From positions 1-64,000 of the forward strand of contig NZ_JYNQ01000001.1 of assembly GCF_000934685.1 (NCBI RefSeq): DNA of 64,000 bases, read 5' to 3'. A model generated the notes under the pieces. It had not been told where the DNA came from, searched no databases, and worked only from the letters and a program-made list of their open reading frames with translations. The position numbers were made by a program, and so were the translations under genes. The stretch is from Lacinutrix sp. Hel_I_90 (GTDB taxonomy: Bacteria > Bacteroidota > Bacteroidia > Flavobacteriales > Flavobacteriaceae). Position 1 is the first letter of the stretch, and every line of letters begins with the position of its first letter. Below are positions 5,558-41,901 of the stretch, in pieces.

Positions 5558-5599
5558 TCATAACAGATAGGGATGTTATCTTAAAAAAAAATAATCCAA

Positions 5600-17412: not shown

Positions 17413-20400
17413 ATGAATTATTTAGTTTATCTAAAAAATAATATTTTACCCGCAGTAGTCTTTTGCATTACTTTTTTCAGCTTTGCTAACGAAAAGCAAT
17501 TTTCAAATGGAGCCATTGCTGTAAATACAATGCCATCGACCTACCAATTTGTGGATCCAGAATTAGGTGCTGTTAATGTTACTTCTGTTAATCCTACCGC
17601 ATATTTAACATTAAAAATTAATGACGATATACCATTTAATAGTAATTTCACCTATGTGCTAAACGCTACTGTTTACCCTATTTTACCAGATGGCACGATA
17701 GAAACAGCGGCAGCTGAGCAAAAAATATTTGAAATTGAGTATAATAAAGACGCAGGTAATTTTCAATACGTTGACGAAGTCTATTTTGAAATAAAAAATA
17801 GATATGGAATACAAATAGTGGTAAACTCATCGGTAGCCTTTAGTTCTAATGGGGCGGGTATGAACAGCATTCCAGATAATGTATCTATTGAATTAGGTCT
17901 CAAAGTAGACCGTTATTATCAATTACCTCCAGATACACTACCTTCGTTATCGTACCAAGAATTACCGTCAGCTTCAGAACCGTGTTCTTTAAATATTGAT
18001 TGGTCAAATTCTAGTAGTGCCCTATTAAATGCTGCTGAAGAATATGAATTAGAGTGGACGTGGATAGATAGTTATGGATTTAATACGCCTGTACGTTTGG
18101 CTTCCGATATCGATTTTTCAAGTAGAGACTTCGAATTAAATAGTACGCGAATAGAAACTAAAGGTACATCATATGAGATTCCTTTAATTTATTCTAGAGG
18201 TTATATTATTTATCGATTAAGAGCAGTCACGCGTTTTGCAGAAGATATCACTAAACGCTATTTTGGCCCATGGACGTCTGGTAATAATGGCGAAATAAAA
18301 GTAGGTGATTGGTCTGATGTGTATCTGCTTTTAAATTCTCATGAACAAGATAAAAACTGGCAATTTCAAACCAGTTATGCCGAGGACGGTAAAAATAAAT
18401 CGGTGGCTAGTTATTTTGATGGAACACTAAGAAACCGTCAAACCGTAACGAAAATTAATAGTGATGACAATGCGGTAGTTGGAGAAGTTATATACGATAT
18501 GCAGGGAAGACCAGCTATTGAAGTACTTCCAGTTCCTACAGATAATAATAAAATAAAGTACTACCCAAATTTTAATATCAGTGAACAGGTAGTAGATCCC
18601 ACAACCGGCAACCTTGCCATTTATTCACCTAAAGATTTTGATTGGGATACCCCTGTTTCAACAGAAGAGGATCCAACTTGTGAGGTAAACTTATTTGGTA
18701 TGTCTGATATTTCGGGTTCAAGTAAGTATTATTCTTCTAATAATACGCCTAATTCAGCCAAGCCTTTTCAGGATTTAGTACCAGACGCACAGAATTTTCC
18801 GTTTAGTCAAATCGTTTATACGCCAGATAATACAGGTAGAATAAGAAGTAAAGGCGGTGTTGGAGTACAACACCAAATAGGTAGCAATCATGAGATGAAA
18901 TATTACTATTCTCAACCAAATTCTGCTTTAGAATTAAACCGATTGTTTGGATACCAGGTGGGGAATTACAAGCATTACAAAAAGAATGTTGTAGTAGACC
19001 CTAACGGGCAAGTAAGTGTTAGTTATATAGATCCGCAAGGAAGAACGATTGCTACAGCTTTGGCTGGAGGAAATCCTAGTAAAACAGACCCAAATAATCC
19101 GGAACTTCAACAAGCCATATTATTGCCATTAGATGATGAAATTGATGCTGCATTAGAATTGCATGATAGAGTAGCATCAGATTTATTAAATAAATTGAAT
19201 CAAGGAGATAAAGATACTAGCGAAGATAACAATAACAGATACGCTACAGGTAATTTTGGTGTTCTACAAGATGGTTTAAGAGTTGATAAGCAAATTGTTG
19301 TTATCGAGAATTTTTCTGACTACAGATTGGAATATGAATTAGAAAACACTGGTGATTTTACTTTTAATGAATCATGTGGAGACATTACTTTTCCATTCGT
19401 TTATGATATAGCCATAGCATTGAGTGACGATTGTAATTCTGAATTGATTTCAGAAAATAAAATGGAATCTTTTTCGAGAACGGAAGCTACAGGCAATCCA
19501 ATTGATAGAGTGTGGAATACTGGAGAATATGGTATTTCTAAGCGCTTGACAGTGAATAAAGAAAACCTGAATGCCGCATGGAATAACTTTTTAAACAGTG
19601 CTCCTGATGGTTGTATTTTAACAGAGGAAGCGTTTATTCCTCAGTTTATAAGTATCGATTGTGATGAAGTAAATTGCGAATCTGTTGCAAATGGGAGGAC
19701 CATTTTTATGACAGAAAAATTAAACGCCTTATTTGGTGCAAACGCCTATACAGAGTCTGGTGGTGTTTTTACGTCTAGCGATAGTAATGTGACCATTGCC
19801 ATTGCAGAATTGCAGGAATCATTCCTCATTTTAGAAGACTTGTGTACAGAATCACAAACCTGTGATGTTAATTCAGCCATGCTATTATCAGACATGAGCC
19901 CCTATGGTCAATATGGTAGATTAGACTACACCTTAACTTATGATGCAGATGAAGCCATTGTAGAGCCCATCATTTTTGTCGATCAATTAAGTGTTTTTAA
20001 TGATGCCAATCAATTATATTATCAAGGTAATATTAACGATCCAGCAAATACAGCCCATACATTTACATGGAGAAATCCTGTTACACCTTATCAAGAAGAT
20101 GGATTTAACTCTGTAATTGAAGTGAATTGGGTAAATGACCAATGGTTACCAGCTATAGCAGTTGATGATTCTGGAGCACTTGTGCAAGAACCAAGTTTAG
20201 GGTCTACATTTAGTGGTGCCTATGGGGACTTAATAGATAGTAAATATTACATAAACCCTAAAGACCTAAGATATGTAACAGACTTTGTAACCAATTGGAA
20301 AACAGATTGGTCACAGGCCTTATTGCCATACCATCCAGAATATTGTTATTTAGCCTATAATGAATCTATTTGTGCCAATAATTACCAAAGCACGACCTCT

Positions 20401-23400
20401 TTTGAATTTGATACCCTTTTAAGTACAACTATAACTTATACTGAGGCACAAACGGCAGGTTTCATTCCTGCTTCCGCGTCCAGTAACACTAACATTGTTA
20501 ATAGCGATCCGTTTTTTAACGTGAACTATATAGGTGAAGCGACCAATAATTACGCTGCACAACGTAAAGCACTCATGCGAGAAGCGATGGGAACTAATTA
20601 CGATGGTACAGGTGTTTCTATGGCACAGTTAGCCTATACCATGGTAAAATGTGGGAATTTAGCAACGACCTGTGGACCCTATTCATTTGGAAGCTTAAAT
20701 CCTGAACAAAGACAAACGTTTTGGAACCTATATAAAGGCTTTTACCAAGGCTTAAAAACAAGGTTGTATGATGTGTTTATATCAATCCATGCTGAGAAAA
20801 ATGGCTGTTATAATCCTTGTCTTGGAGGTGAAGATAGAACGATTGCAGACTACATGTCTTTAATACAAACGTATACACAGCAAAGTACTATTGCTCAATA
20901 TAATGACGCACCAGCTACACTTCAATTATGTACTTCTCCCTCTTCAGCTCTTTATGGAGATGTAGGAACAGATGGTACTGACTTATATGAAAAGCGTTTT
21001 ATTCCTTCAGATTTTCTATTTAATGATTTAGGGGTAGACGTTTCAACAGATCCTCCAACGGTTGATGGCAGTGTGATTCCTAATTATTATCAAGAGACAG
21101 GTAAGTGTAAAATACAAGTGGATCTAGAGCTGTTTTTGAATGGGTTTCTAACTAAAAATAACTTAGCAAGTCCATACCTATATGAAGATGGATTCATGGT
21201 ATTAGACTTATTCACAGCTTTAGGTGGGGAAGAAGCAGATGCTAATGGATTAACAATAAACAACGTCATCAATAGCAATGAATTAGTTATTAGTACCTCT
21301 TTAGAAAGTATTTGTGATAAACCGATAACCTTAAACTTGCCAGAAAATCAAAGTTGGAATGCTTCACATTCATGGAATAATATAGGTAGCTCTTGGGAGT
21401 TGTTGAGTCTGTCGCATTCTTTTCACGATGTAGCGGTAACGGTCGATGGTACCTATGCTTATCAATTATTGGGTAAAGTAAAATTATCTAACGGTACGAT
21501 TAAAGAATACGTATTTAAGGGAACTACATGTGTTAACTTGTTAAATTGTATTCCGGAATGTCAAACAGAATTACCTTCAGATTGTGATACCCCAGCAGAG
21601 AAAGATTTTTCCAATTTTGTATTAAACGATTTTGCAGATTTTCTAATGTACTTAGATAATAATGGCGGCTTTTGGCATACCACCTATGAAAATCTAGAAG
21701 GAATCTATGATTTCAACATGCCAGAGTGTATTACTGCAAGCTTTACGCATAATAATCTTGGTCCTAATGGCACTGCTATTACTACACTGTCTTTTGTTTC
21801 AGAGAATGACCCGAATGAGTTTTATAACGTAACTATAACTTATTATCCATCGAGGTTAAGTAATAATACAAATACGTTATCAAATACCATTGAAATAATC
21901 CCTGATGAGGGTGATAACTTTTTATTAGTCTACAATGGTCAAATATTTAATGCGCTTATAGAACAGACTGATAATAACTTGTTAAGTTGTTGTATTGAAG
22001 AAGAGGGCTGTACAACTGTTTTAGAGGATGGTTTTGAGTCTGCTTATAATAGTTTACAAACTTATATAGATACTCATTCTGAAACGAATGCATTACCATG
22101 TTTAACAGGTAATTCAAATTTCACATGGATTTCTCAAACAGAATGGGTTAATACTAATAATCACGTAGATTTTTGGTTGCCAAAAACTAACTATCCGGCA
22201 AATTTCTTCAATGAGTGTACAGGAACTGGCTCTAGCTACGTTTTGCCAGATCATAAGGCGTCTCCTGATGGTGGCGTTTTCATTAGTATGGCATATAATC
22301 AAGGGTATTTACAGTTTTCAGACGGAATAAAATCTTCAAATTACAATTTAGAAACTGGGAAAACATATAAAATTTCGTTTTATATGGCCAATCTTGGTAG
22401 ACAACACTCTGGTCCTTCACAAGGCAATCCTGTTGGAGAATTGGGAATTAAGTTACAATTGTCTAATGGACAGCAATTTTTATCTCCATTATTAGGATAT
22501 TCTAACACAACATCAAACGATTGGCAACGTGTAGAGTTTGAATATACGCCAACAGAAAATATAGTTTCAGATTTTAGCTTCATAGCTTATTCAGATATTA
22601 ATAATTCAATAAGTGAAAGAGGAGCCATTTGTATTGATGGTATTAAGATTAAAGAGTGTGAAAATGATACAGTACCATGTGTTCCTGAACACATCGCTTT
22701 TGCAAGTATCGTTCCTGGTATGGGAGCTAACAATATAACGAATGGTTTTGATAGAGAGAATATTGGTAACGCCATCGTAGATTTTGTAAATAATAATCTA
22801 GAGGACCTATATTTTACTGGATACGATGCCATTTCTGGTGGAGGCGTAAGACTAAGAGCAAATAATCAACTCATGAGTGATGCTCTACCTCAGTCAACAA
22901 ATTCTTCAGGAGCGACACTTCCTGTTGATGCCGGTAGTGAAATACATGTTGGCGGATTATCAACAATTTTACAACTTCAAAATTCAACGTATGGTTATGC
23001 ATTTGATGTTATAAACCAAGATATATTAAACAAAGATTATGATGGTGAAAGTTTAAAAACGGTTTTCTATTTAGTGAGCCAGTATAACGTAAGTCTTAAT
23101 AAGATACTTTTTCAAGAGGCTATTCTTGACAAAAATATAAAACCGTTCTTTATTATTTTTGAACAGACTAACAACACAGCAGATGCCTTTACAAATACTA
23201 ATTTGGCGACTCTTTTTGATAGACCTGTAATTGATTATCAAATGAATAATTCAATAGCAACTTCTGATTATATTAAATTTAATACAGATTTTGATTTTAA
23301 ATCAGATTTAACCTCATTCTTAGATGGTGCTTATCAACAAATACAAGATTGTGATGATGAGGTACCTGGACCAGTTAAGTATATGTACCCAGAAGTGTCT

Positions 23401-26400
23401 CTAAGAAAGCAAGTATCTAATGCAGGCACAAATAATGTTATCTTATATGATGATGTTACCTTTAAAGTGCCTAGCGTTAAATTTGCTGTAGGTGAAGTGT
23501 TCGATTTTGACTTCTATATTAATTCAAGTGATTATTCAGAGTCAAGTGATTATAGCAGTGCAAAATTAACTATTAATGGAGTAGAGTATACAACTGCTAA
23601 TGGATTAATTGTCACCACAAGTTTTGATAATGATGCTTTTGGATTTGTTATTTGTCCGCCTAGTGATATGCTATCTCAAAGTGGTTTTTATTCAGCAAAT
23701 TACCAAATGGATTATATTAATTATGACTTTAATGCTGTAAATAAGGCCTTTGATTTTAATTTTAACTCCTTGCAGTCTTCTGATAATTCTATCACCATGA
23801 CGACAACAAAAACAGATATTTGGTCAGGAGTAAACTTACCGTCTGGTTATATTAACATCACTGGTGAATCTCCATCCTCTAGTTGTAACTCTATAAATCC
23901 AAAATGGAATGATAGCATTCCTTATAATTTTGATGAAGGAGTCTTAATTAATTTTAGTACAAAATTAAAAATCACCGCAGATATTTACGATTTTGGTCCA
24001 GGTTATGATTATTTTGGTAACATTGCACATTTAAATCACAATGCGGTTCATACCAATGAGCTTGGTGTGTTGGAAGATGCTCAATATTCACTTTTAGTAT
24101 ATATGGCAGGTGTTGAAGGTTCAGCAACCTCGAATAAAGCAAGAGGTCTTACTTCTTTAACAAAAAACAATACGCCACCAGCATTTGCAGACAATTCTAT
24201 TGTTGCTAAAAAAGTGGTTACCAGTAGTAATCACAAAGCGAGACAAAAATCAAAGCAAAGCGCCTTTGCTAAAAACAGCACTAATTCACAACGTTTCCTT
24301 GAAGAAGATTGTGAAGATTGTGTTGTGCAACAAGTAGCCCCTTTAAGTTGTAACGAAAAGTATGAGGCCTATATGCAATTCATGAATTTCCAACCAACTT
24401 ACTTTGATGGAGCAGAAACCGACAATCAAGGCAATCAAATTCCTATAAATGTAGAAGTGCAAGTGTCTACTACCATTGCAAATTATGAGTTATTACCATT
24501 ATTTAATGAAGATTATTTCTGTAATGCTAATTTTGCTTACATAACAGACGCTTACATTTACTATATTACAGAAAAAGGAGTAGACAGTGTTGACCACCCC
24601 TTATTTTTAAGCATTGGTGAATTTGGTAATACTACCGTAAATTATGGCTATGATAATTTAGATACTCTTGCCAATGAAATGCATCTTTTAATAGATGGCT
24701 ATACTGGAAATATCGATGAAAATGGTATTGCCACTCAAACCTGGAGTGATTATATAGATTCACAAGTTATAAATCAAGACGGTAGTTTAAAGGTTTGTAT
24801 ACCAAATCCGTTTGGTTTCTATTTAGACGTTCCCTCGGTAGACCTTTGCGATGGTGTCGCTCAAGCGTTGATAGAAACATACATTCGTGATAGCTACATA
24901 ACGTACTTAGACCAATTGAGAAATCAATTTGAGACGGCGTATATTAATGCAGCAATGGAAAATGCCGTAGAGCATTTTTCTATGGAATATCCAGATAAAG
25001 AATACCAATACACACTATATTATTACGATCAGGCGGGCAATTTAATACAAACCGTAGCGCCAGAGGGCGTTGATAGATTAGGGAATGGTTTAACAATAGA
25101 AGAGAAAGAAGTACTTTCCAATGCTATTGATATTACTAGAGATGCAAATCCAAATACGGCAGTTCCTGCGCAGTTACCAGTGCATAGAATGCCAACACAG
25201 TATAAATATAATTCTCTAAACCAGCTCGTTTGGCAAAAAACTCCAGACGGCGGGATTACAAAATTTGCTTATGATGATTTAGGTAGAATTATAGCTTCGC
25301 AAAACGCAAAGCAAGAACAGGCATATAGCCCGGTAATTAGTGGGCCAAGACCTATTGCGCGTTTAAGATTTAGTTATACTAATTATGATGCAATAGGACG
25401 AATAACAGAGGCTGGAGAAATAGATACTTTTGTTACAGAGCAATATACCATAGATAATAATGGTAAGTTGTTGAAAGCAGGCGTTGTACAACAGGATTTT
25501 TCTAATGCTAATTTTGTAGAACGTAGAGAGGTTACCTATACAACGTATGATAATCCTTTACTGTTAGGAACAGGAACTAGTGATGCCTCTTTATTATTTG
25601 AAACAGCCTATCAGGGATACAATTCTAGAAACAGAGTCACTTCAGTTTTATACTTTGATAAAGTGGTCACCAGTACGATTGATCTTAATAGTTTCAATAA
25701 TGCATTATTCTATAATTATGATGTACATGGGAATGTAAAAGAATTGGTGGTTCAAAATAATGAGATGGCCATTCAAAACAGTGATCAGGAATATAAGCGA
25801 TTACAATATGAATACGATTTAATTAGCGGAAACGTGAATCGTGTCGTCTATCAAAAAGGTAAGAAGGATCAGTTTATGCATCGTTATACTTACGATGCAG
25901 ATAATAGAATTGTGAGTATTGAAACTTCTACTGATGCTGCTATTTGGGAGAATGATGCTACTTATGAATATTATGAGCATGGACCATTGGCAAGAATGAA
26001 TTTGGGTAACAAGCAAGTTCAGGGATTAGACTATATCTATACCATTCAAGGTTGGCTAAAATCTGTTAATTCTGAAGCCGTACTTTCAGAAAACGATTAC
26101 AGTCAAGATGGTGTATTAGGGAGTGCAAATGAAACGGTAGCAAGAGATGCCTATGGGTTTTCATTACAGTATTTTGATAATGATTATACGTCAAGAATTC
26201 CTGGAGCCGATGCCAATATTTTTACCAAGAGTAGCTTAGAGTCTAGCACAACCAACTTGTATAATGGTAACATTAAACAAATGGTCTCAAGCATGAGACA
26301 TTTGAGTGTCGATGGAATCACGCCGAACAATTCTCGCACCTTTACACAAAATGCGCAATATTTTTACGATCAACTTAACCGAATTAAATCTATGAACGCT

Positions 26401-29400
26401 AGTAGTATGGCGGTTAATGATAAGAATATAATTGAATTTCAAAAAGACAATGCCTATTCTGCAACTTACAATTACGACAGAAACGGAAACTTAACAGGTT
26501 TAACAAGACATGCACTAAGAGAGGGGAGTACTGTTGCTATTGATAACTTTGAATACTTATATAACAAAGATGCTAATGGTAATATTGTAAACAACCAGTT
26601 AACGGCTGTTAGTGATCCATTGCGAGTACAAGTATCTTCAGATTTAGATGATCAATTACTCGTGCTACAAGAAGAGCTAGGTATTACCTTTAATCCTAAT
26701 AATGAAGCTACACATAACTACGTTTATGATGCCATAGGTCAGCTAACTCAAGATAAAACAGAAGGTTTAATTATTGAATGGCGCGTAGATGGGAAAGTAA
26801 GAAAAGTGATTAAGAGAGCGGTCAATAAGCCTTATGATATTAAGCGTCAAGAAATTGTCTTCCAATACGATGGTTTAGGTAACCGAATTGGTAAAAACGT
26901 GATCGACTTTAATAAAAAAGGACGTATTAAAAAGCAAACACCTACTTTTTATAATCGTGATGCACAAGGCAATGTCATGGCCATTTACGAAAAGGAAATT
27001 AAAGGGGGTAAAAAGGCTAAAGAAAAAATGTTCTTAAAAGAACATCATATTTATGGTAGCTCAAGATTAGGTCTACAAGAAAGCAATGAATTGTTAGCCT
27101 CTAGTGATCAAAAAGAAATCATATTAAAAGAAACGAAAGCAACAAAATTTAGATTGCCATTTGAAGATGTAGATGGGGTGTCACAAAATGATCTTGTTGC
27201 TAGTGAGTTAGCATCAGAACTGGCTATTGCATTTAATAGCATATGGGATAAAAAGACAAACAAAAAGACGTCTAAAAAAGAGCAATTAAAAGAACTAGAA
27301 CAGATCATTGCTAAAAAGATAAAGACTTCTTATCCAGAACAAGGGAGTGAGGAATTAATACTGGCTATCACTAATAAGATTTCTGCTTACCGAGATACGC
27401 TAACGAGTACAGAAGATCTAATAGCATCAATTTCATATAATGCTTTAAGTCAAAAACTGAGTAACGATATAGAGCCCATACTTAATAGCTTTATTGTGCC
27501 TCGATTAATAGATGAGAGTGCATTAGCTAAAATAAATACACAGGCTATGCAACGCTCTGATGTTTCAGGTTTTGCATTGGATTTCTCAGGGAATAATATT
27601 ACGTATTGGAATGATGATAGAATTTTTAATTTATTAAGAGCGGGTAATTATAGTATTGAAACGTCTATAAATATTACGAATACCCTTCCAGATGGAGACT
27701 ATCTAATCTCAATAATAAGAAGTAGACCAATGCGTAGAGGTCAAAACATCATGTATTTATACGTGAAAAAAGAAGGTGCATTATTTTATCCTTACATAAA
27801 ACTAAAGCGATATGAAACTTCAAACATTATTGGACCAGACGGGATTCCTTTTGTTAATTACCAAGAAGTAATCTATAGCTCAAATCAAGGCTTTTCAACA
27901 CCACAGTTGGATATTGATTTTCAAGCGAGTTTAGTAAACAGTACTAGCATAACAGCTAATACTGCAGTCTTATCGGTTAACGATGTTGTCTTTAGCTTGA
28001 GTAATGGGGGGTTAATAACAACGACATCTACCACGCCAAGTTTAGATAATATCTTAACATTAAACACGAATACCATTGGTGCAGATGCTCGTATTAATTA
28101 CACCATGTGTTATTATAATTATTCGACTACAGACTTCACTGGTGTTGCCACTCAAAGATCATACTTATTTGATACTGGTTCAGGCACGGTGGCCACAGAA
28201 GAAGCAGGTGATATAAACTTTAACATGACTTTATCGAATACTGCGATGTGGATAGATGGGGCTTGTGGAGATCCTATAGTTTACCCAGACTCAGATAACG
28301 ATGGGATAACAGATAACATTGATTTAGACGATGATAACGATGGTATTTTAGATACCGTAGAGAATGCAGGAGGTATTGACACAGATACCGATAATGATGG
28401 GGTTATAAACAGTCTGGATTTAGATAGTGATGATGATGGCATCGATGATATTTACGAATCGGGTGTATTAAATACAGGTAATGTAGTAGACGCTAACAAT
28501 GATGGCGCTATAGATTTTACAAATGCATCTGTTTTTGGTGCTAATGGTTTACATAACGCATTAGAAACAACTACTGATTCTGGAATAGTAAATTATACGA
28601 TAGTTAATACGTTCCCTTCAACCGCCGTAAATTTCTTAAACGATGACGATGATGGCGATTCTGTATTAACCAAAGATGAAGATTTTGATGTTGCCGGTAT
28701 AGGCAATGCGATTAATGAAGATACAGATGAAGATGGTATAGCAAACTATTTAGATCCAGATGATGATAACGATACCGTAATCACGTATCAGGAAGCACAA
28801 GATTTAATTACCTACTATGGTGTTACCACAACCATAGGTGCGCGTGCCGATTTAGATGGAGATGGCATACTAAACTATTTAGATACAGACGATGATGAAG
28901 ACGGGTTCTATACCTACGAAGAGGATACAGCCTCTGCTGGTAACCCACAAGGAACAGATACCGATGGCGATGGTATACCAGATTATATTGATGCTATAGA
29001 TAACCTGTATGGGCAACCATTAGGGCAAATAGATTTTGCAGATTATGCAAACCTTATAGGAGATAAACGTTATGAGTTATCTAACCATTTGGGTAATGTA
29101 TTAAGTGTAGTCACAGATAGAAAGTTGTTTAATAGAAGTGGAGCGTTAAGTACACCAGTGTATACGACAACGTTTACCAGTAGCCAAACACCTTGGGCCG
29201 CTAGTGAGAATACTCAAAGTGCGACAGTAGAAAACGGTCGATTAAAAGTAGTCACTGGCGCGCATTTAAATGGCGCGAACGGATATTACGATTTAGAAGC
29301 TAATAAAACATATAATGTTAGTGTTTATATTGATAAATCTGAATTCACACCACAGTTAGAATTTGGAATATGGAAAGGTAACAGCAAACTATACAGTGAA

Positions 29401-30756
29401 TATGTTACGCAATCTGGAACAATAAGTACCACATTCACACCAACGCAAACCAATACATATAGACTAAACCTAAGACTACGAGAAAGTGGGTACTCTGGAG
29501 AAGCACTCCCTTTTTACGTAGATAATGTTACTATTATTGATGTGACGAACAGTAACGATATCGTTAATTTAAACCAATTTTCACCAGACGTTATTGCGTA
29601 CAATGATTACTATCCTTTTGGGATGCTATTACCTAATAGACATAAAAGTAGCTCTAGCTATCGCTATGGCTTCCAGGGGCAGGAGAAAGATGATGAGCTT
29701 AAAGGGGAAGGGAATTCTATGAATTTCACTTTTAGGATGTATGACCCTAGAATTGGTAGATTTTTTACTGTTGACCCTTTAGCGAAACAATATCCTTTTT
29801 ATTCACCTTATCAATTTAGTGGTAACAATGTTATATCTCACAAAGAGCTTGAAGGCGGAGAAGAATTAATTGCGATTACACCAAAGGAAGAAGGGGCTTC
29901 TTTTTTCTCTACAGTAAACGGTGAAGCGATTTCAGTAGGTGTAGTGACAAAAGGATTAGAAATCATTGGAGAAAAAGCAACTGCTTTTTCTTATTCTTTT
30001 GCATACAAAGAATTAGGTAAAGGAAAATTAAAAGGAACAAACGGTAAGATATATACTGTTAATGAGTTAATAGTTAGAGATGTAACGTTGATAGATGGAA
30101 CTGTTGTTGAGGATATTACCATGGCAGCTAGAAATTTAGGAAATCAGCACTTCAATACTAAACAGATAAATCAAGTAGAAGCATTTAGAAGTAGGTCTCT
30201 TAAACATCTTGGTAGTGTTTTAGAGAAAGTTGGAGATGGTTGGGATGTAGTTTCATTAGTCAGTGAGACAGCTAACAATGATGGTCAAGTAGATGCAAAT
30301 TCTCTATTAGGAACAGGTATAACAACATATATAGCCTCTTCTGGTGGTTTCTTACCAGCTTTAGCGGCAGGGTTAGTTATTGACTTACTAGGAAATGAAG
30401 CTCAAAAAATGATAGATGACATAAAAGAAGCTAGAAGAGATTATGTACTAAATGTATCTAGAAACAATCCTGTTTCATCTTTACAGAATGTTGTAGGAAA
30501 TGGTGTTATTAAAGATAATTTTGAAGTTATAAGTTTACCAACGTCTTTATTAGGTGATTTTTTAACTGGACAAATTAAAACTAAAGAAGAGTTAGATAAT
30601 GCTATTTGGAGTGATGAAAACGCAATGTTACAAAGAGATAGTGCTATTTTAATTGAATACTCTGATGATGGAGAAAGTATTCGTGTGCATAGAGCATACC
30701 TCAATACGGAAAACCGTGTTGAATCAAGTCCAAAAACTAAATCAGATAAAAAATAA
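17413..30756 (+). CDS. 4447-residue RHS repeat protein with calcium-repeat insert and variable C-terminal tip
   Basis: An N-terminal signal peptide ends near FFSFA (residue about 26). RHS/YD repeats start around residue 340 ([18 protein letters not shown]) and dominate from about 2530 to 3230 ([55 protein letters not shown]). A carbohydrate-binding-like module lies near 1560-1760. An Asp-rich thrombospondin-3-like repeat block ([19 protein letters not shown], several times) occupies about 3626-3863. The conserved core end follows: [18 protein letters not shown] near 3887, then [18 protein letters not shown] and [18 protein letters not shown] at about 4065-4125. Residues about 4145-4447 are a variable tip with a Gly/Ala-rich hydrophobic segment ([22 protein letters not shown]) and no catalytic motif I recognise. 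RHS proteins enclose and deliver such tips as toxins, which is the likely but unproven role here. Two small genes follow directly. Confidence 0.92.
29605..29840 (+). repeat. RHS core-end sequence, copy 1 (inverted second copy at 35228-35476)
   Basis: This segment encodes [18 protein letters not shown] through about FSGNNVIS. Its first 44 bases (29605-29648) are identical to the reverse complement of 35433-35476, and strong similarity continues through the GEGNS codons. Similarity then fades through the FRM-DPR-GRFF region into the tip. The two copies face each other about 5.4 kb apart, with the tyrosine recombinase between them. Confidence 0.9.
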
Positions 30757-31213
30757 ATTTGTGTATTATTTTATAACAATATTAATAATTGGTGTAATTA
30801 TATTTTTTCTCAATCAAAAATTGAAATCAGATAGTTCTTCTTTATTGCAAGGAAAAAAATTGGCAATAGAAAGAATAAAAAATAATGGAACAATTATTGA
30901 GTTAGATGCAGAGAATTGTGAAGTAATAAAAAATGATACTATATTAAAGCATAATTATTATGAGTCCTCTGAAACATATGGATTGAAATTTTTGAAGATA
31001 GCCAAGTATAATGTTAAAGATAAATATCAGATACAATCATTATTGGTTTGTAGATATATTAATTCAAAAGGTCTTGAACAAAAATTTGTGAAACAAATTC
31101 CTATGGATAGCACAATTTTAAGGATTAAAATAAATATGCAAAAAAAAGTAAAAATTCACATTAATGCTTTGAATAATAACTACTATATCGATTTAAATTT
31201 TTTAAATAATTAA
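30716..31213 (+). CDS. Candidate immunity protein with one membrane helix
   Basis: The longest frame opens with TTG 30653 inside the RHS gene. I prefer GTG 30716, giving 165 residues that start [18 protein letters not shown] 30761, 4 bases after the RHS stop, is also possible. One hydrophobic helix ([16 protein letters not shown]) follows a basic stretch, then a soluble domain rich in Lys, Ile and Asn ends in [10 protein letters not shown]. The frame overlaps the RHS C-terminus and the next gene begins 2 bases after its stop. A small membrane-anchored protein right after an RHS tip is the usual place for an immunity gene, so this is inferred to protect against the 4145-4447 tip. I recognise no family. 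Confidence 0.6.
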
Positions 31214-31215
31214 AT

Positions 31216-31692
31216 ATGAAATATTTCCTTTTTTTTATTGTCTTTTCTTTTTTCACAAATGAAAATGAGTGCGAGATTGATTTTAATTCAGTTGGAATAA
31301 ATGACTATGATTTAAACATTTCTTGTTCTGACTTAAAAAATATTATACCAGAATTAAAAAAAGATTCTAATAGTAAATTAGATGATGATATATCCATTTA
31401 TTCTTATATTATAAATCAAAAGATACTCAATATAAACAGAAAAGTTGAATACTATTTTGCTTTTAAAGAAGATAAACTACAGGCTTATGTTTTTAATGTT
31501 TATTCCGGAAGAGATATAAAATATTATAAATTTTTTGTTAAAAAAGCTAGGGAAAATAACGCTTTTATATCCGAAAAAGGAACATCTTTTTTGGAAACAA
31601 AAAACAATTGCGAAAAATTTTTAAGAATAAAATCTAATCCTAATCAAATAATAATCTTTGGAGGCATTAGTAAAATAGGGAGTTATTGGTAA
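31216..31692 (+). CDS. Small exported protein, second candidate immunity gene
   Basis: This 158-residue protein has a short hydrophobic N-terminus (MKYFLFFIVFSFFTNENE) that looks like a signal peptide. A mixed alpha/beta part follows with four Cys; YYFAFKEDKLQAYVFNVYSG suggests a beta sheet. The family is not recognised. It starts 2 bases after the preceding stop and is visibly more A+T-rich than the RHS core, as is typical of recently exchanged tip/immunity genes. It could be immunity to the RHS tip or a remnant from an earlier cassette. Its last base overlaps an ATG that opens a 26-codon frame of doubtful coding value. Confidence 0.6.
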   Translation: MKYFLFFIVFSFFTNENECEIDFNSVGINDYDLNISCSDLKNIIPELKKDSNSKLDDDISIYSYIINQKILNINRKVEYYFAFKEDKLQAYVFNVYSGRDIKYYKFFVKKARENNAFISEKGTSFLETKNNCEKFLRIKSNPNQIIIFGGISKIGSYW

Positions 31693-31702
31693 TGCCCAGC
31701 TT

Positions 31703-31723
31703 GCGCTCGTCTGTGACGAGTGC
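31703..31723 (+). repeat. 9-bp hairpin directly after the immunity genes
   Basis: GCGCTCGTC and GACGAGTGC pair over 9 bp (one G-U) around a TGT loop, starting 10 bases after the stop codon. It is G+C-rich in a very A+T-rich neighbourhood and has no T-run, so it is not a terminator by itself. It may be a cassette boundary or an RNA-stabilising structure. Confidence 0.55.
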
Positions 31724-31750
31724 CATGTCGAGTAAGAAAGAAATTAGACA

Positions 31751-31786
31751 AAAAGCTTTTACAGGAATGTAAAGGCTTTTCGTTTT
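31751..31786 (+). terminator. Terminator at the end of the RHS operon
   Basis: The arms AAAAGCTTTTACA and TGTAAAGGCTTTT form a 13-bp stem (one G-U) with a GGAA loop, followed by CGTTTT. It lies 59 bases after the last candidate immunity gene and before the recombinase. Confidence 0.75.
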
Positions 31787-31860
31787 AAAAAATCTCTCAC
31801 CCTCAACAACAATTTACAATTATATAAAATAGTTACATTTACAGTCAGATAAAAGAACCC

Positions 31861-32910
31861 ATGAAAAAGCCAGAACCTGTAATTCCCTTATTCAAAAAAT
31901 TCATTCGTGAAACGGAAACAGGGAAGCGTCTTAAAAAAAATGGAGAGCGTATAAAGAAAGGCAGTATAGAGAATTACAAATACACACTTAACAATCTTAC
32001 AAAATTCTCGATAGAGGCTGGTTTTGAATTGCGCATTTGTGACGCTTCTAAGCTTAACAAACGGGAGTTAACATCGGAGAAAAACTACTGGAAAAAGTTT
32101 TATAAAAAATTCACAGAATATCTTTATAAAAATGGCTGTTATGACAACTATGTTGGCGCAAACATCAAAACCATTCGCACCTTTTTCAATTATCTAAAAC
32201 ACGATAAAGATATTAATACAGGTGACTTCCAACGGTTGTTTTATGTCCGCAATGAACAGGTAGAAATTTTCGTGTTGTCTCCAGAACAGTTAAAATTTTT
32301 AATACACGACACTATTTTTGAGGAGTCTTTAACCCCAACTCTGAAACGCATCAAAGATATTTTTGTCTTTGGTTGTACTACAGGACTGCGGTATTCAGAT
32401 ATTTTCAATCTCACCAACAAAAACTTCGAGTTACAAGAAGGTGATTGGTATTTAAAAATAAAATCTCAAAAAACAAAAACGTATAGTTTTATTAAATTAC
32501 CAGATTATGCTGTATCCATTTATAAAAAATATGAGCCTAAAAGCGCCAAAACAGCGGTATTTAAAAACATCACCTTGTTTAATTTTAATAAGAACTTAAA
32601 ACTATTAGGCGAGAAAGCAGATTTTACTACTCCTGTTGCGATCTCTCGAGAAAAGCAAGGCAAAGCCTCGCAAGTTAATAAAAGTGCTGTAAAAATTACG
32701 CAAACACGTTTTTGTGATAAGATGAGTTCTCACATGATGCGGCGTACTGCTATTACTACTTTGTTAATTTTAGGAATGCCAGAGCATTTAGTTCGTAAAA
32801 TTAGTGGGCATAGTCATGCCAGTAACTCCTTTAACCGTTATGTCCATTATGCACAAGTCTATGTGGATAAGGAGATTGAAAAGGTACATGAGAAATTGAA
32901 TACTTATTAA
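31861..32910 (+). CDS. Tyrosine recombinase/integrase
   Basis: This 349-residue site-specific recombinase has an N-terminal SAM-like core-binding domain (about 10-125). The catalytic domain carries Arg177 (TTGLRYSD), a Lys in KSQKTK near 204, His291-x-x-Arg294 (SSHMMRR), His317 (GHSH) and the nucleophile Tyr327 (NRYVHY), so all key residues are present. This is the Bacteroidota phage-integrase-like type that acts on DNA through a 3'-phosphotyrosine link. It stands alone, with no phage or conjugation genes, between the RHS operon and an inverted RHS cassette. A weak TACATTTA -7-like box lies at 31834. It may catalyse cassette gain or inversion; this is inferred only from location. Confidence 0.9.
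   Translation: MKKPEPVIPLFKKFIRETETGKRLKKNGERIKKGSIENYKYTLNNLTKFSIEAGFELRICDASKLNKRELTSEKNYWKKFYKKFTEYLYKNGCYDNYVGANIKTIRTFFNYLKHDKDINTGDFQRLFYVRNEQVEIFVLSPEQLKFLIHDTIFEESLTPTLKRIKDIFVFGCTTGLRYSDIFNLTNKNFELQEGDWYLKIKSQKTKTYSFIKLPDYAVSIYKKYEPKSAKTAVFKNITLFNFNKNLKLLGEKADFTTPVAISREKQGKASQVNKSAVKITQTRFCDKMSSHMMRRTAITTLLILGMPEHLVRKISGHSHASNSFNRYVHYAQVYVDKEIEKVHEKLNTY
32876..32894 (+). repeat. 19-bp direct repeat, copy 1 (inside recombinase 3' end)
   Basis: The 19 bases TTGAAAAGGTACATGAGAA recur exactly at 33073-33091, 197 bases downstream. Copy 1 encodes the EKVHEK end of the recombinase. Confidence 0.85.
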
Positions 32911-33056
32911 TTCTCTTAGTTTACAAGCTATTCTGCATTTTTCAGCTATTAATAATGAGAATAATCTTTTTTTCTTTGGTCAGTTCGGTTTTTGGGTAAA
33001 TTTACAATGTGTTTAAAAATTAGACACGCTTCACAGAAGCGCGCCAATCTAAACAT

Positions 33057-33107
33057 ATGTCTTACGAGCGGGTTGAAAAGGTACATGAGAAGTTAAACAA
33101 CTACTAA
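33057..33107 (+). pseudogene. Remnant 3' end of a second tyrosine recombinase
   Basis: The frame reads MSYERVEKVHEKLNNY and stop. Its last eleven residues match the C-terminus of the intact recombinase (IEKVHEKLNTY) almost exactly, and it includes the second copy of the 19-bp direct repeat (33073-33091). Some synonymous bases differ (AAGTTAAAC against AAATTGAAT), so it looks like the tail of a related but distinct recombinase rather than a very recent duplication. A 6-bp hairpin (CGCTTC-ACA-GAAGCG) lies just upstream at about 33027-33041. Together these suggest an old insertion/excision boundary. The rest of 32911-33201 holds nothing recognisable. Confidence 0.6.
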
Positions 33108-33201
33108 TTTTATTATAAAATAATAGAAGCCTTCTTTTTTTTATATAGTATTATAGGAGTTCATTACAAATCCCATCTAACGGAGATTAGAAATCTATTC
33201 G

Positions 33202-34383
33202 CTAAATAGCTTTATTGTAAATATTTTCACCAAATTTTATATAGTATTTACCACTTCTTTTATCAAATATTTGTTTTAAATCTTGATTGTTATTAATTTT
33301 AATGTTCTCAAAATTATTAGTGGTCAGATTTAATATGTATGAAGAATTTTTTGATTTTGAGACGTGAACTATAATTTTATCTTCTAAAAAAAATATTTGA
33401 TTTTTATGATCTATCTTCTCTTTCAAAAACACTTCCTTTATAACCTGTCCATTATCTGATACTTGAATGACTTTTGTGCTGTTATGGTTATTACATATAA
33501 TAACTAGTCTATCATTGTAAAAATATATATTTAAAATGTTTGCATTAAATGTTTTTTTCCATTTCTCTTTTCCATTAATCTTGTCTAAGCCAACCAGGTT
33601 GTTATTATACTTTACTACAAATAGACTATTTAAATTATAAATTTTAGAATTAAAAAATGTACCGTTACTAGTCTTTTTAAGAGGTATTTTTTTTTGCCAC
33701 TCTTTCTTGTTATAAAAGCAAAAAATATTTAATGAATCATTTTTAAGATATGAAAAAACATTTCTTTTTTTCAAGGGGAGTGAGAGGCTATTATAGTCAG
33801 CATTTTCTGTTGAAAATATTGATTTTTCATGAAAAATATAGTTTTTAAAATTAAAAACACACCCCCCTTTAAGGTCCTTAGTATAGTATGTGGTTCTATC
33901 AACTACATTAAATTCAAAAGGTGTATACTTATCTATACCTTCAAATAACTGCTTCTTTTCAAATTTCGCATTTTTATCCCTTATATTATTAACATATATA
34001 GTCTCTGACGAAGTGTTTTTTAATAAGTAAAACATTCCATTATCTAAAGAATATCTCAAACCAACATATTCATCTATAGGACTTTCTAGTATCTTCAATA
34101 ATTTCTTGTCATCTAAATCAATAAAATAGAAAAGTATTCTTTTTTCAATACTTTCATTTTGAATTATAGATGATAAAATCAATATTCCATCCTCTATTGA
34201 GGTGTTTTTTAATAATACTAAATCATCATTATAAAATTCATATTTCTTTAAATCTAATATTGACTCAAAAAATGTCTCAGAAGATTTTGGATTACATCCA
34301 GAAAGAAATAATAACGATAGAACTAATTTAACCTTTAGGTTTTTCTGAAGGTTTTTCTTTAATGTTTTTTTCATAATATTCAT
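33202..34383 (-). CDS. Lipoprotein with PQQ-like beta-propeller repeats, partner of the orphan RHS tip
   Basis: Up to 393 residues start from ATG 34383; a second ATG at 34374 gives MKKTLKKNLQKN. The signal ends in a lipobox (LLFLSGC), so the protein is lipidated. The mature part is a run of beta blades, including NLVGLDKINGKEKWKKTF, a PQQ-like/WD-type propeller motif, and FYNDRLVIICNNHNS. Propeller lipoproteins serve as binding scaffolds. The gene overlaps the 3' end of the orphan RHS cassette by about 50 bases, which is the position of an immunity gene, so it is a candidate antidote to that tip. It is unlike the immunity candidates after the main RHS gene. A+T content is high. Confidence 0.65.
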   Translation of the reverse strand: MNIMKKTLKKNLQKNLKVKLVLSLLFLSGCNPKSSETFFESILDLKKYEFYNDDLVLLKNTSIEDGILILSSIIQNESIEKRILFYFIDLDDKKLLKILESPIDEYVGLRYSLDNGMFYLLKNTSSETIYVNNIRDKNAKFEKKQLFEGIDKYTPFEFNVVDRTTYYTKDLKGGCVFNFKNYIFHEKSIFSTENADYNSLSLPLKKRNVFSYLKNDSLNIFCFYNKKEWQKKIPLKKTSNGTFFNSKIYNLNSLFVVKYNNNLVGLDKINGKEKWKKTFNANILNIYFYNDRLVIICNNHNSTKVIQVSDNGQVIKEVFLKEKIDHKNQIFFLEDKIIVHVSKSKNSSYILNLTTNNFENIKINNNQDLKQIFDKRSGKYYIKFGENIYNKAI

Positions 34384-35458
34384 TGACTTGTTTGTTAGCT
34401 CTTTTTACGTCGCTAAGCTGGTCTTCATTCAAGCTAGTATTGTTTTTTGTTTGATGTTTATCTGGGTATAACATAAACATTGGTATGTTATATCTTCCTA
34501 CCGAACCAAATTCATCGTCTGAGCTTAGCAAGCTTACTCCAAAAAGCGAAAAGTCAGGAAAAAAATGTTTAGATATAGCTATATTACCCATAAGACCTGA
34601 TTTAGTAGCTAAGCTATTTGCAAAAGACAAAGCACTTTTGTCTGCATTTTGATAAACATCTAAAGCTACTACGGTTTGCTCGTGCCAAACAAAATTTGAA
34701 TCCCATTTATACCAATCATCTACTACTTCTTTTTCAAATAAAATGTCATTAAATTTTTCAGTTGCATATTTTGCAATACCTAAATTCAAACTTTTCATTA
34801 ATTTTCCTAATCCAGGAGTAAATGCTCCAGTCGCTATACTATTATCCGACTCTAGTTCCCATGTGTCAGCAAGTTCGTCGACTAAATAAGCAGCACCTTT
34901 AGCCCATTGTGATTTAAATCCTTTTTTGTCAACTTCTCTTTGAACCCATTTATAATAATCTCTAACAATACCAAAGCTATAATTGTCAGTTGTAGGAGTT
35001 TCCACATATGTATAACCAATTGAGGTTGCTGTCATTCCTTTTGAAACAAATAGTTCAGATGATTCATTTTGAGTAATAAATTTCATAGCATTTTTCCATC
35101 TATGAGTTTCATTAACTCTATCTTGAGTTAGCCAAACCCCATTATTCCCATCTAAATCATCAACTGTTATTTTTGCATCACCTGTATGTAAAACATAAGC
35201 TTCGAAACTAGAGTATTCTTCTAATCCTTCCAGTTCTCTATGGCTAATAACTTTATTTCCACTAAAACTATATGGCGTATAATGAGGATAAGTAGCGGCT
35301 AACGGATCCACCGCAAAAAATCTTCCAACTCTTGGGTCGTGCATTCTAAAGGTATAGTTTAGACTATTCCCTTCACCTTTAAGCTCATCATCTTTCTCCT
35401 GTCCCTGGAAGCCATACCTATAACTAGAACTGCTTTTATGTCTATTAGGTAATAGCAT
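34328..35458 (-). CDS. Orphan RHS C-terminal cassette (silent toxin tip)
   Basis: A 376-codon frame begins at an internal Met of the RHS core. Homology to the big RHS gene starts further upstream at 35476, but eight codons before that an in-frame TGA closes the frame, and there is no signal peptide or promoter. Residues about 1-80 ([20 protein letters not shown] ... FRMHDPRVGRFFAVDPLA ... FSGNKVISHRELEG) match the core end of the 4447-residue protein. From about residue 80 the tip is completely different (EEYSSFEAYVLHTGDAKITV ... VWHEQTVVALDVYQN), with no recognised nuclease or other catalytic motif. This is the structure of a displaced rhs-CT cassette that becomes active only after recombination into the main gene. 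The partner lipoprotein overlaps its end. Confidence 0.8.
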   Translation of the reverse strand: MLLPNRHKSSSSYRYGFQGQEKDDELKGEGNSLNYTFRMHDPRVGRFFAVDPLAATYPHYTPYSFSGNKVISHRELEGLEEYSSFEAYVLHTGDAKITVDDLDGNNGVWLTQDRVNETHRWKNAMKFITQNESSELFVSKGMTATSIGYTYVETPTTDNYSFGIVRDYYKWVQREVDKKGFKSQWAKGAAYLVDELADTWELESDNSIATGAFTPGLGKLMKSLNLGIAKYATEKFNDILFEKEVVDDWYKWDSNFVWHEQTVVALDVYQNADKSALSFANSLATKSGLMGNIAISKHFFPDFSLFGVSLLSSDDEFGSVGRYNIPMFMLYPDKHQTKNNTSLNEDQLSDVKRANKQVNEYYEKNIKEKPSEKPKG

Positions 35459-35476
35459 CCCAAAAGGATAGTAATC
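35228..35476 (-). repeat. RHS core-end sequence, copy 2 (inverted relative to 29605-29840)
   Basis: On the minus strand this begins with the same 44 bases as 29605-29648, then shows several synonymous differences through the GEGNS codons and weaker similarity to the FSGN region. The upstream edge of similarity is sharp at 35476, the expected trace of a recombination junction. Confidence 0.88.
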
Positions 35477-35622
35477 TAATATGTCTTGAAATCAATAAAT
35501 AAAAGAACTTATACCTTATAAAAATAGTAAATAATAACCACTTTATGCTAAAAACGCACTTTTTTGATGCATAAAATAATATAGAAATAGACCTAGTTAT
35601 TCTGTTAGAAAAATAAATTGTG

Positions 35623-35630
35623 TAATTTCG
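35623..35630 (+). promoter_or_regulatory. -7 box of the secretion operon
   Basis: TAATTTCG resembles TAnnTTTG with one change (C for T). It lies 20 bases before the ATG at 35651. No clear TTG -33 element was found. A similar box (TATTTTCG) occurs inside the operon at 39530. Confidence 0.45.
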
Positions 35631-35650
35631 CAGCTTTAGAAGCTAAACGA

Positions 35651-36364
35651 ATGAAAATAAAACTCCTACTTATTATTTTACTGGTAGTATCCTGTGGTGC
35701 AAGTAAAGAATCCCTGCACCAAAAAAAGATACAAACCACAACCTTTAAAGAAGACTTTATGGTCACTAAAGAGCCCACGCATACAAATACTAGTAGAACG
35801 TATTATTGGTATAAGTCTAATAATATTCAACAATCTAAAGGTGGGTATAGTGGCGATTTGTTACATGGTGAGTACATACAATATTACATTACCAATCAAC
35901 TAGCAGAGAAAGGCGTCTTTAATCATGGTCTAAAAACCAAAACATGGAAAAGCTGGTTTAAAAACGGTCAATTAAAAACAGTAGAGCACTATAGTAATGG
36001 GAAATTGAATGGCAAATTTGAATTGTATGGTGATGATGGGAATGTGGTAACACGAGGGCGTTATAAAAACGATATTAAAAACGGAAAATGGATCGATTAT
36101 ATTGCAAAGGATACGCTTCGATATAAAAAAGGGAAACAGGTTGTAAAAGACTCTATTACTATAGATGAAAAACCGTCGTTTTTTAAACGTCTGTTTAAGA
36201 AAAAAGAAACGGAAGAAAAGGGTGAGCTAAAAGAAAAGACACCAAAGCCTTTAACACAAAATAAAAAGAAAACTGTTAAAAAAGAAAAGACCCAGCAACC
36301 AAAAAAAGAGCCGTTTCTAAAACGTTTGTTTAGTAAGAAAGAGAATACTAATGCTAAAGGCTAG
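35651..36364 (+). CDS. MORN/YwqK-type repeat lipoprotein, first gene of pilus-like operon
   Basis: The start is ATG 35651, because it gives a lipoprotein signal (MKIKLLLIILLVVSC, lipobox VVSC) just after the promoter-like box; the longer frame upstream is not supported. The product is 237 residues. Residues about 65-150 carry MORN/YwqK-type repeats (LLHGEYIQYY, KTWKSWFKNGQLKTVEHYSNG, KNGKWIDYI). The C-terminal third is highly basic (FFKRLFKKKETEEKGE, FLKRLFSKK). The repeat type is usual in Bacteroidota envelope proteins and is not itself an antitoxin. Its 3' end overlaps the next gene by 14 bases, tying it to the secretion system, perhaps as an outer-membrane accessory. The exact role is unknown. 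Confidence 0.75.
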   Translation: MKIKLLLIILLVVSCGASKESLHQKKIQTTTFKEDFMVTKEPTHTNTSRTYYWYKSNNIQQSKGGYSGDLLHGEYIQYYITNQLAEKGVFNHGLKTKTWKSWFKNGQLKTVEHYSNGKLNGKFELYGDDGNVVTRGRYKNDIKNGKWIDYIAKDTLRYKKGKQVVKDSITIDEKPSFFKRLFKKKETEEKGELKEKTPKPLTQNKKKTVKKEKTQQPKKEPFLKRLFSKKENTNAKG

Positions 36365-37577
36365 TTCATTATTGTATGCTATTTTTATATGTTTAGTGGT
36401 CTCGCTACTGTGTGGGAGTCTTATTCTTATTTTTAATTACCAATACCGATTAAAACAACAGTTTTTTTTAGAAAACGAGTTAGTAAACTACAGCAACTCT
36501 AGTTTTCTAAAATTTATAGACCTGTTAAATACGACAACAAATACTTCTAAAGGAAGTATTATTAGTGACGATAATCGACTAACCACGAATTACACACTAT
36601 CAAAATGGGGGTTCTATGATCTCGTAAAAGCCAAAACCTATTTTAAAAACGACACGCTTTATAAAACAGGCCTTATTGGGAGTAAAACAACAGAAAAAGA
36701 CTTAGCGTTGTATTTAACAGAATACAATGCCCCTTTAAAAATAGGAGGTAAAACACGTGTAGTGGGCGATGTTAAAATTTCTAGTTATGGTGTGGAACAA
36801 GCCTATTTAAGCCACCAGAACTTTACGGGAGGTAAGTTAATAGAAGGGAAAATAGGACACTCTAGCGATAGGTTACCTAGATTAGAATGGAAAGCAGATG
36901 CTCGGTTTACAATGAGCGAAAGAGAACTGTACTACGAAGAAATTGTAAATAAACCACTGTACAATAGTTTTTATGAGCCTACGATAACTGTTATTGTTGA
37001 TGGGATCACCCATTTAAGTGAGGTAACATTATCTGGAAATTTTATCATTCAGTCTAAAGATTCACTGGTGATAAAAGAAACAGCAAAATTAAAAGACGTG
37101 CTTATTAAAGCGCCAAAAGTCACGTTTAGCTCTGGTTTTAATGGTAGTGTTCAAGTGTTTGCTAAAGCACGAGTCCATTTAGAAAAGCGGGTACATTTAC
37201 AATACCCTTCTAGTATTTATCTAAATAATGACAATGAAGACAAAAGTATTGAAATATTTATAGATGAACACAGTAAAATCGCAGGCGGTGTGGTTTTAAC
37301 AGGGAATACCTACGAGGGGTCTTTAAAGCGCTTGATAACGATAGAAAAAGATGCAGAAGTGGTAGGTGATGTGTATTGCTATGGGAAAACCCAACTTAAA
37401 GGCAAAGTAACGGGTACGGTGTATACCGATCGGTTTTATTTAAAAACAGATGGGGGTACTTATGAGAATTATTTGGTTAATGGTAGTATAAATAAAAAAG
37501 AGTTACCAAGTGCCTTTGTTGGTTTGCCACTATTTGCTAATAATACAAGAGTATATGAACTTATTAAAGAATTATAA
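36351..37577 (+). CDS. Large GspK/PilX-like minor pseudopilin candidate
   Basis: This 408-residue protein has a single N-terminal helix (LKASSLLYAIFICLVVSLLCGSLILIF). Its KA-SSLLY start closely resembles the QA-SSLIE prepilin site of the next gene but has Tyr where prepilins have Glu5. Lack of Glu5 and large size are features of GspK, the pseudopilus tip subunit. The rest is beta-rich with a repetitive hydrophobic pattern (SLVIKETAKLKDVLIKAPKV, AEVVGDVYCYGKTQLKGKV) that recalls polymer-forming bactofilin-like or beta-helix folds. It overlaps the preceding and following genes. The tip assignment is inference from the N-terminus, order and missing Glu5. Confidence 0.65.
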   Translation: MLKASSLLYAIFICLVVSLLCGSLILIFNYQYRLKQQFFLENELVNYSNSSFLKFIDLLNTTTNTSKGSIISDDNRLTTNYTLSKWGFYDLVKAKTYFKNDTLYKTGLIGSKTTEKDLALYLTEYNAPLKIGGKTRVVGDVKISSYGVEQAYLSHQNFTGGKLIEGKIGHSSDRLPRLEWKADARFTMSERELYYEEIVNKPLYNSFYEPTITVIVDGITHLSEVTLSGNFIIQSKDSLVIKETAKLKDVLIKAPKVTFSSGFNGSVQVFAKARVHLEKRVHLQYPSSIYLNNDNEDKSIEIFIDEHSKIAGGVVLTGNTYEGSLKRLITIEKDAEVVGDVYCYGKTQLKGKVTGTVYTDRFYLKTDGGTYENYLVNGSINKKELPSAFVGLPLFANNTRVYELIKEL

Positions 37578-39503: not shown

Positions 39504-39529
39504 GAGACGTGTAAGAATAAAAAAAGTGA

Positions 39530-39537
39530 TATTTTCG
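39530..39537 (+). promoter_or_regulatory. Possible internal -7 box before the major pseudopilin gene
   Basis: TATTTTCG lies in the 81-base gap between the gspF-like gene and the major pseudopilin gene and matches TAnnTTTG except at one base. A separate promoter here would allow higher expression of the major subunit. No -33 element is evident. Confidence 0.4.
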
Positions 39538-39584
39538 CGAATTATTACCTGCTAAAGACATCGAAACCATTAATATTCAATGAT

Positions 39585-40001: not shown

Positions 40002-40005
40002 ATTT

Positions 40006-41900: not shown

Positions 41901-41901
41901 T

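Follow-up and report, generated by a model that had tools for sequence, protein, structure and literature searches.

In the R64 shufflon, according to PMC11852207, a recombinase (the shufflon invertase) selects alternative C-terminal segments of one protein through DNA inversion. Invertase-driven shuffling is also on record in the Bacteroidota, where PMC11852207 and PMC4747536 cover the SusC/SusD shufflon of Bacteroides fragilis (Tsr0667) along with further invertible regions. For Rhs loci of Salmonella and other enterobacteria, PMC3967940 describes orphan rhs-CT/rhsI modules, tip and immunity fragments without a translation start, which lie downstream of the main rhs gene, can be fused to it, and are proposed to be brought into use through duplication and homologous recombination. 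Here we describe a 64,000-nucleotide stretch of Lacinutrix sp. Hel_I_90 (positions 1 to 64,000 of contig NZ_JYNQ01000001.1; hereafter the window), in which an Rhs gene and an inverted orphan cassette bound a segment of 5,872 bp (29605..35476) that is present in both orientations in one assembly. We regard this locus as very probably a tip shufflon for an Rhs polymorphic toxin, driven by a tyrosine recombinase at a site that encodes DYYPFGM.

The expressed Rhs gene (17413..30756, forward strand) encodes a protein of 4447 amino acids with the Pfam families DUF6443 and RHS_repeat, an N terminus that resembles a signal peptide by eye, and, at its end, the NCBIfam domain Rhs_assc_core (TIGR03696) followed by tip A. 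On the reverse strand, an orphan open reading frame (ORF; 34328..35476) carries a second core-end followed by tip B, with no core upstream of it. The Rhs-associated core domain scores above cut-off in both copies, before tip A (29605..29856, forward strand, E 6.4e-12) and before tip B (35225..35476, reverse strand, E 1.6e-09), which, with RHS_repeat also present, gives the locus the architecture of an Rhs polymorphic toxin. The domain corresponds to the 84 residues common to both copies, with its start one residue into the shared block. The two core-ends are 86% identical to each other, and the shared arms have 85% identity over 179 bp and 79% over 262 bp. They begin with a perfect match, which we take as the two copies of the recombination site: 29605-29648 on the forward strand equals the reverse complement of 35433-35476 in 44/44 bases, the second-longest identical run being 26 bp. 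The left edge of the arms is sharp, because identity is only 22% in the 60 bases that precede the two sites. An earlier note, made from the sequence alone, had reported this junction identity, the repeated core end, a completely different tip behind it and an abrupt end of similarity at 35476, and all four observations hold. The in-frame TGA that it placed eight codons upstream is also there (35494-35492, reverse strand), at a distance of six codons from the GAT at 35476, with five open codons between. Copies of the site were classed by rule as active, anchor (as the orphan copy here) or stored, using the open frame upstream and TACTATCC at bases 4-11, by which some anchors (L036, L102 5638) resemble truncated expressed genes; an in-frame stop exactly six codons upstream is found in 12 of 47 anchors, the window counted.

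The assembly consists of two contigs, of 3.80 Mb (C1) and 21.8 kb (C2), and the inverted arrangement is carried by the smaller one. By alignment, C2 is made up of window positions 22054-29604, the reverse complement of 29605-35476, and 35477-43852, with both junctions exactly at the site and flanks of 7.5 and 8.4 kb beyond them. As both junctions keep the entire arms, the crossover falls inside the 44-bp block. At the first junction, the core (…SPDVIAYN) is joined in frame to the tip B copy of DYYPFGM; at the second, the tip A copy now occupies the silent slot. Inversion between inverted sites, with its junctions in the site and an in-frame fusion as its product, is observed directly in C2. 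The earlier expectation that a crossover between the two copies would flip the segment and swap the expressed tip is realized in this contig, although the exchanged segment measures 5,872 bp and not the 5.4 kb that had been given.

An inversion of this kind could be the work of RecA, with homologous recombination between the core-ends as the mechanism and the recombinase described below as the passenger integrase of a mobile element. The 44-bp identical block lies within 262 bp of 79% identity, the best PHROG matches of the recombinase are phage integrase families, some convergent pairs of core-ends elsewhere have no recombinase nearby, and homologous recombination is what PMC3967940 proposes for the Rhs orphans of Salmonella. 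We nevertheless consider this explanation unlikely, on comparative grounds that are given with the data below. Far less credible is the view that C2 arose as an artefact of assembly or library and that the locus is a frozen relic. C2 is short, and it differs from the window in 31 columns over 21.8 kb (30 single-column gaps and one substitution), so its coverage was probably low; however, 28 of the 31 differences sit within 2.4 kb of a contig end, which would fit thinly covered long reads, the contig spans both junctions with long flanks, precision at both junctions is not what a random chimera would give, and the comparative evidence is independent of C2. The least credible option is a second true copy of the locus, by duplication or on a plasmid, which would account for both arrangements in one assembly, but the alignment of C2 to the window covers the whole contig, both contig ends lie within genes, and there is a single substitution in 21.8 kb.

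Inside the invertible segment lies a gene that the earlier note did not mention, encoding a tyrosine recombinase of 349 amino acids (31861..32910, forward strand; PF00589, E 1.7e-15), our proposed invertase. Its residues R177, K204, H291, R294, H317 and Y327, presumably the catalytic positions, are invariant across 63 aligned recombinases (the window included; L067, L077 and L081 set aside, and L056, L058 and L075 out for length), which argues against a passenger integrase. No NCBIfam model was reached at cut-off, and no sequence of a solved structure matched at E 0.001. An origin as integron integrase with cassettes was rejected, NF040815, a model covering integron integrases, giving 36.6 bits against a cut-off of 220. 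The last 43 bases of the gene, including its end (32876-32918), recur at 33073-33115, 197 bp downstream, with 81% identity, and this repeat is perhaps the leftover of a second recombinase end. Small palindromes similar to REP-type elements, for example CTCGTCTGTGACGAG and GCTTCACAGAAGC, flank the gene at 31690-31740 and 33025-33070, as judged by eye.

We propose that this enzyme would recombine two inverted copies of a site that lies within coding sequence, at DYYPFGM, where the Rhs-associated core domain starts. Inversion would put tip B and its partner, in frame, behind the 4,064-codon core, replacing tip A and its partner genes, and the other tip would be parked in the silent slot without the core and its start. 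A boxA-like leader would let RNA polymerase cross the untranslated tip to the immunity gene, and immunity supplied by the silent cassette would allow cells to survive siblings that had flipped. Judging from its linkage to Rhs core-ends in relatives, the window recombinase probably performs the inversion itself.

One scan of species genomes returned 68 loci with recombinase relatives, which range from Hyunsoonleella, Seonamhaeicola, Flavobacterium, Aquimarina, Maribacter, Mesonia and Winogradskyella (Flavobacteriaceae) to Chitinophagaceae; the match in L081 spans 63 bases only and is probably false. An Rhs core-end lies within 10 kb in 60 of these loci, and in the remaining eight the recombinase match is at most 1.3 kb from the end of the available sequence. 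The 48 loci with at least two core-ends, window included, comprise 45 that are strictly convergent (+n-m), three with core-ends on one strand and none that is divergent. Core-ends on both strands number six in L065, L048, L017 and L020 (where two pieces beside a run of N are possibly one copy) and five in L057, L042 and L032, and there are five on a single strand in L040 and L027. Several interchangeable segments are present, two in the window and more elsewhere, with the exchange itself seen for the window pair only. Assembly breaks at core-ends (L042, L048, L053 and others) were not counted as evidence, because repeats alone break short-read assemblies.

A family sample of 395 genomes allows the linkage to be set against chance. 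The recombinase was found in 16 of these genomes, and a core-end at E 1e-8 in at least 105. Adjacency was counted with the 119 strongest core-end rows (37 genomes, down to about 1e-19), weaker rows being left out. On this basis, a strong core-end stands not more than 12 kb away from 17 of 18 recombinase genes (16 of 17 independent cases, with the window locus and its C2 isoform taken once), versus 0.11 of 18 expected from at least 354 core-ends in the 395 genomes at an assumed 3.8 Mb per genome. The recombinase is linked to the sites far beyond chance, which speaks against inversion by RecA. The same rows include a series of nine consecutive core-ends in G129, all to one side of its recombinase. 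They also yield 13 convergent, no divergent and 41 tandem pairs of adjacent core-ends less than 20 kb apart, C1 and C2 being counted separately. The recombinase is enclosed in seven of the convergent pairs and stands just outside two; the other four are G176:C1, G176:C2, G230 and G369. In G230 (L101), two flanking ORFs start with the same residues, and an ORF near the end of the stretch resembles another tyrosine recombinase by eye; in G369 (L102), the core is truncated and one ORF is transposase-like. In the genus, a core-end is present in 4 of 13 genomes. G010 holds two convergent pairs and one recombinase, and G176 three convergent pairs, with one recombinase found; one enzyme may serve several Rhs loci in trans, as the layout of G176 hints.

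The orientation of the recombinase is also informative. Where the gene lies inside the segment, it has the direction of the expressed core in 12 of 21 loci and the opposite direction in nine, whereas in all nine loci where it lies just past the silent slot (by 126-685 bp) the direction is the same (Fisher 0.029 against the inside group). In this count one L020 row (67 open codons of N) was dropped, and for L049, L067 and L038 'inside' means only that the stretch from core to recombinase showed no copy in the opposite direction. All 30 counted expressed genes point toward the recombinase. A split of 12:9 inside and 9:0 outside is what a freely inverting segment predicts, and variation that is confined to genes inside the segment speaks against RecA and a passenger gene.

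Comparison of expressed with anchor copies in 25 pairs shows 96% identity across bases 1-20, against 44-72% past base 110 and 24-36% in the 60 bases that precede the site. In 24 of the pairs the left edge is placed between -2 and +4, with a right edge that ranges from 18 to 223. At the site, eight pairs (L023, L028, L031, L039, L056, L058, L063 and L070) have no more than about 18-29 identical bases in common, which is short for RecA, and the same left edge recurs in loci of two taxonomic classes, again contrary to homologous recombination. Of 62 recombinase-linked copies that encode DYYP, 58 do so with GATTACTATCC (39 of 43 loci), compared with 13 of 35 copies among the controls (in 13 of 29 genomes; Fisher 3e-9 and 3e-5, respectively), the controls being 40 one-kilobase regions picked from the family core-end matches in genomes without the recombinase, plus L108. 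Since codon choice at GATTACTATCC differs from that of the controls, the DNA, and not the protein alone, seems to be constrained at the site. Linkage of recombinase and Rhs gene, convergent layout and conserved site recur in Flavobacteriia and Chitinophagia. In stored cassettes of the arrays in L017, L032, L040, L042 and L060, about 10 variable bases separate the leader box described below from a right half-site that resembles CTTTTGGAATGCT, whereas expressed and anchor copies have GATTACTATCC in common.

Tip A (29857..30753, forward strand, 299 amino acids), which is expressed in the window isoform, and tip B (34331..35224, reverse strand, 298 amino acids), which is silent there and expressed from the C2 fusion by our proposal, have no similarity to each other at E 1e-4. 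Relatives of tip A are found in the silent slot of G176:C2 (L104, 51%), in L110 and L111 (89%), in L113 (67%) and in the L027 array (29%); for tip B, a relative occupies the silent slot of L073, from a Chitinophagaceae metagenome-assembled genome (38%, or 42% in a separate alignment). Over 146 tips, only one of 165 within-locus pairs is similar (in L031), and 44 similar pairs connect different loci. Tips that are unrelated within loci and similar between them are best described as polymorphic modules moving between loci. Pfam assigned 30 families among 145 tips, and the 25 that were listed, each with one to three members, include PT-HINT, Ntox21, WHH, GH-E, LHH, Tox-PL-2, Ntox43, RES, Colicin-DNase, phage lysozyme, CHAP and YkuD. 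Several of these families act on bacterial DNA or the cell wall, so an antibacterial role is likely.

Candidate immunity genes accompany both tips. An ORF overlapping the end of tip A (30653..31213, forward strand) is a candidate by position; it has no Pfam or NCBIfam family and a weak match to a PHROG of unknown function (E 0.003). The next ORF (31216..31692, forward strand), a second candidate immunity or partner gene, has a relative (30%) in L027, where it follows the tip A relative at a distance of 0.6 kb. A predicted lipoprotein (33202..34383, reverse strand) overlaps tip B at its end and has a lipobox-like LSGC, by eye, and a weak match to the PQQ/BamB propeller, below cut-off. Taken together, the families seen among the tips and the position of these genes make it plausible that the tips are antibacterial toxins with immunity partners.

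Several observations weigh against the interpretation developed so far. RecA recombination in the 44-bp block would yield the same C2. Most Rhs genes of this kind appear to work without the recombinase, as it is found in 16 family genomes and core-ends in at least 105 of the 395, and it occurs in 2 of 13 genomes of the genus. The fetched stretches of the G230 and G369 arrays contain no recombinase relative, nor do those of the two-copy pairs G176:C1, G176:C2 and G010:C1:455-457 kb, although the G176 and G010 genomes carry one elsewhere. Four recombinases look broken, with early stops in L056, L058 and L075 and a match length in L067 that is not a multiple of three; these loci may be locked. 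GATTACTATCC is also used by 13 of the 29 control genomes, the site match fails in L066, and the orientation test rests on the small numbers of 30 loci and a p of 0.029. As for toxicity, the window tips match no known toxin family in Pfam or NCBIfam; tip B has no convincing match in PADLOC or PHROGs either, tip A none in PADLOC, and against sequences from the PDB neither gave anything convincing (best E 0.11). Two of the 145 tips match Peptidase_M91, which is described as an effector family, making a solely antibacterial role less certain and other targets possible.

Upstream of the orphan site, the silent cassette has a boxA-like leader, AAGTTCTTTTATTTATTGAT (35491..35510, reverse strand). Boxes similar to GTTCATTNACATATTG precede the 16S start by 120-159 bases in the leaders of this genome and ten others. 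A matrix was built from 17 leaders of these 11 genomes, out of 18 loci that were tried, with six more loci left unused. Under this matrix, 2 of 3450 and, in another run, 1 of 3360 dinucleotide shuffles score as high as the window anchor, which makes the anchor a match to the box that rRNA leaders of its own lineage carry. Across loci, 18 of 47 anchors exceed the 95% null and 11 the 99% null (20 and 11 in the other run), versus three and none on the other strand. The corresponding numbers are 6 and 5 of 65 for stored copies (68 less L045, L051 and L055, which are cut by a contig start), and 4 and 1 of 34 for active ones. The shorter string [GC]TTCTT occurs within 60 bases in 26/47 anchors, 41/65 stored and 9/33 active copies, compared with about 4% in base shuffles, and on the other strand in 2/47 anchors and 1/65 stored copies. 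The idea that all orphans carry the long rRNA box was dropped, as stored copies mostly have the shorter form and many orphans have none.

We take this box to be boxA, an antitermination element, and it may keep the polymerase going over the untranslated tip to the immunity gene. That the box is instead an arm bound by the recombinase is possible, though we incline against it. Its distance from the site is fixed, with the matrix start at -34 in most matching anchors and [GC]TTCTT mostly at -14 to -16 in stored cassettes. In 8 of 33 active copies the same string, at -15, is part of the coding sequence, and with the long matrix only five of 65 stored copies reach the 99% null. A binding arm would leave unexplained, however, why anchors match the extended rRNA leader motif on one strand, and why stored copies with a box near the site have TAnnTTTR, presumably the Bacteroidota -7 element, just upstream in 20 of 33 cases (7% in base shuffles). 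The window leader has no good -7 element by eye. These leader sequences suggest that silent cassettes may be transcribed, so that the word silent, used in the earlier note for the whole cassette, fits the tip only. Orphan core-ends in L116 and L118, from genomes without the recombinase, are preceded by a different common leader, TTTTTTGNNAAAAAACGCAAT, which suggests another cassette family.

Upstream of the locus (2-6574) lie a SprB-repeat protein with a CHU_C signal and PorP/SprF, of type IX secretion, and downstream (36351-45017) a cluster resembling type II secretion or type IV pilus systems, with N_methyl, T2SSF, T2SSE, secretin and PilN domains.

If the shufflon interpretation is correct, tip replacement in Rhs proteins would be a dedicated reversible switch, as opposed to the homologous recombination under selection that is described in PMC3967940. 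It would point to a tyrosine recombinase family with a natural in-frame coding site, suggest an unexpected use of rRNA-type antitermination boxes in the expression of immunity behind untranslated toxin fragments, and make it testable how clones diversify their weapons without killing themselves. A broader idea, which we put forward tentatively and would not yet call probable, is that of a programmed arsenal: tip libraries kept by Bacteroidota in recombinase-driven inversion arrays would ensure that a clone always contains differently armed cells, while stored cassettes would have promoters of their own, and transcription from these, passing an antitermination box of the rRNA type, would keep the immunity genes on.

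Among titles and abstract openings, a search whose scope excluded preprints and most subscription journals, we found no description of an Rhs shufflon or of recombinase-driven inversion at an Rhs gene, and a prior description is possible; the word Rhs does not occur in the accessible parts of PMC5903667 and PMC11852207. In layout, the locus resembles the R64 shufflon, in which Rci acts on C-terminal variants of pilV, as in both cases inversion picks the C-terminal segment of a protein. It differs from R64 in that the protein is Rhs toxin-like and each segment comes with candidate partner genes, that the recombinase is often inside the inverted segment, and that the hosts are Bacteroidota. With the B. 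fragilis systems it shares invertase-type shuffling in the Bacteroidota, but there promoters or outer-membrane proteins are changed, and not toxin tips. The displaced rhs-CT architecture to which the cassette had been assigned in the earlier note fits only in part. Like orphan rhs-CT/rhsI modules, the cassette is a tip and candidate immunity fragment without a start. To our knowledge, displaced rhs-CT orphans share the strand of the main gene and follow it, whereas the window orphan is inverted. Inverted cassettes with a conserved site, set beside a tyrosine recombinase and recurring in many genera, are what distinguish the present system from those orphans.

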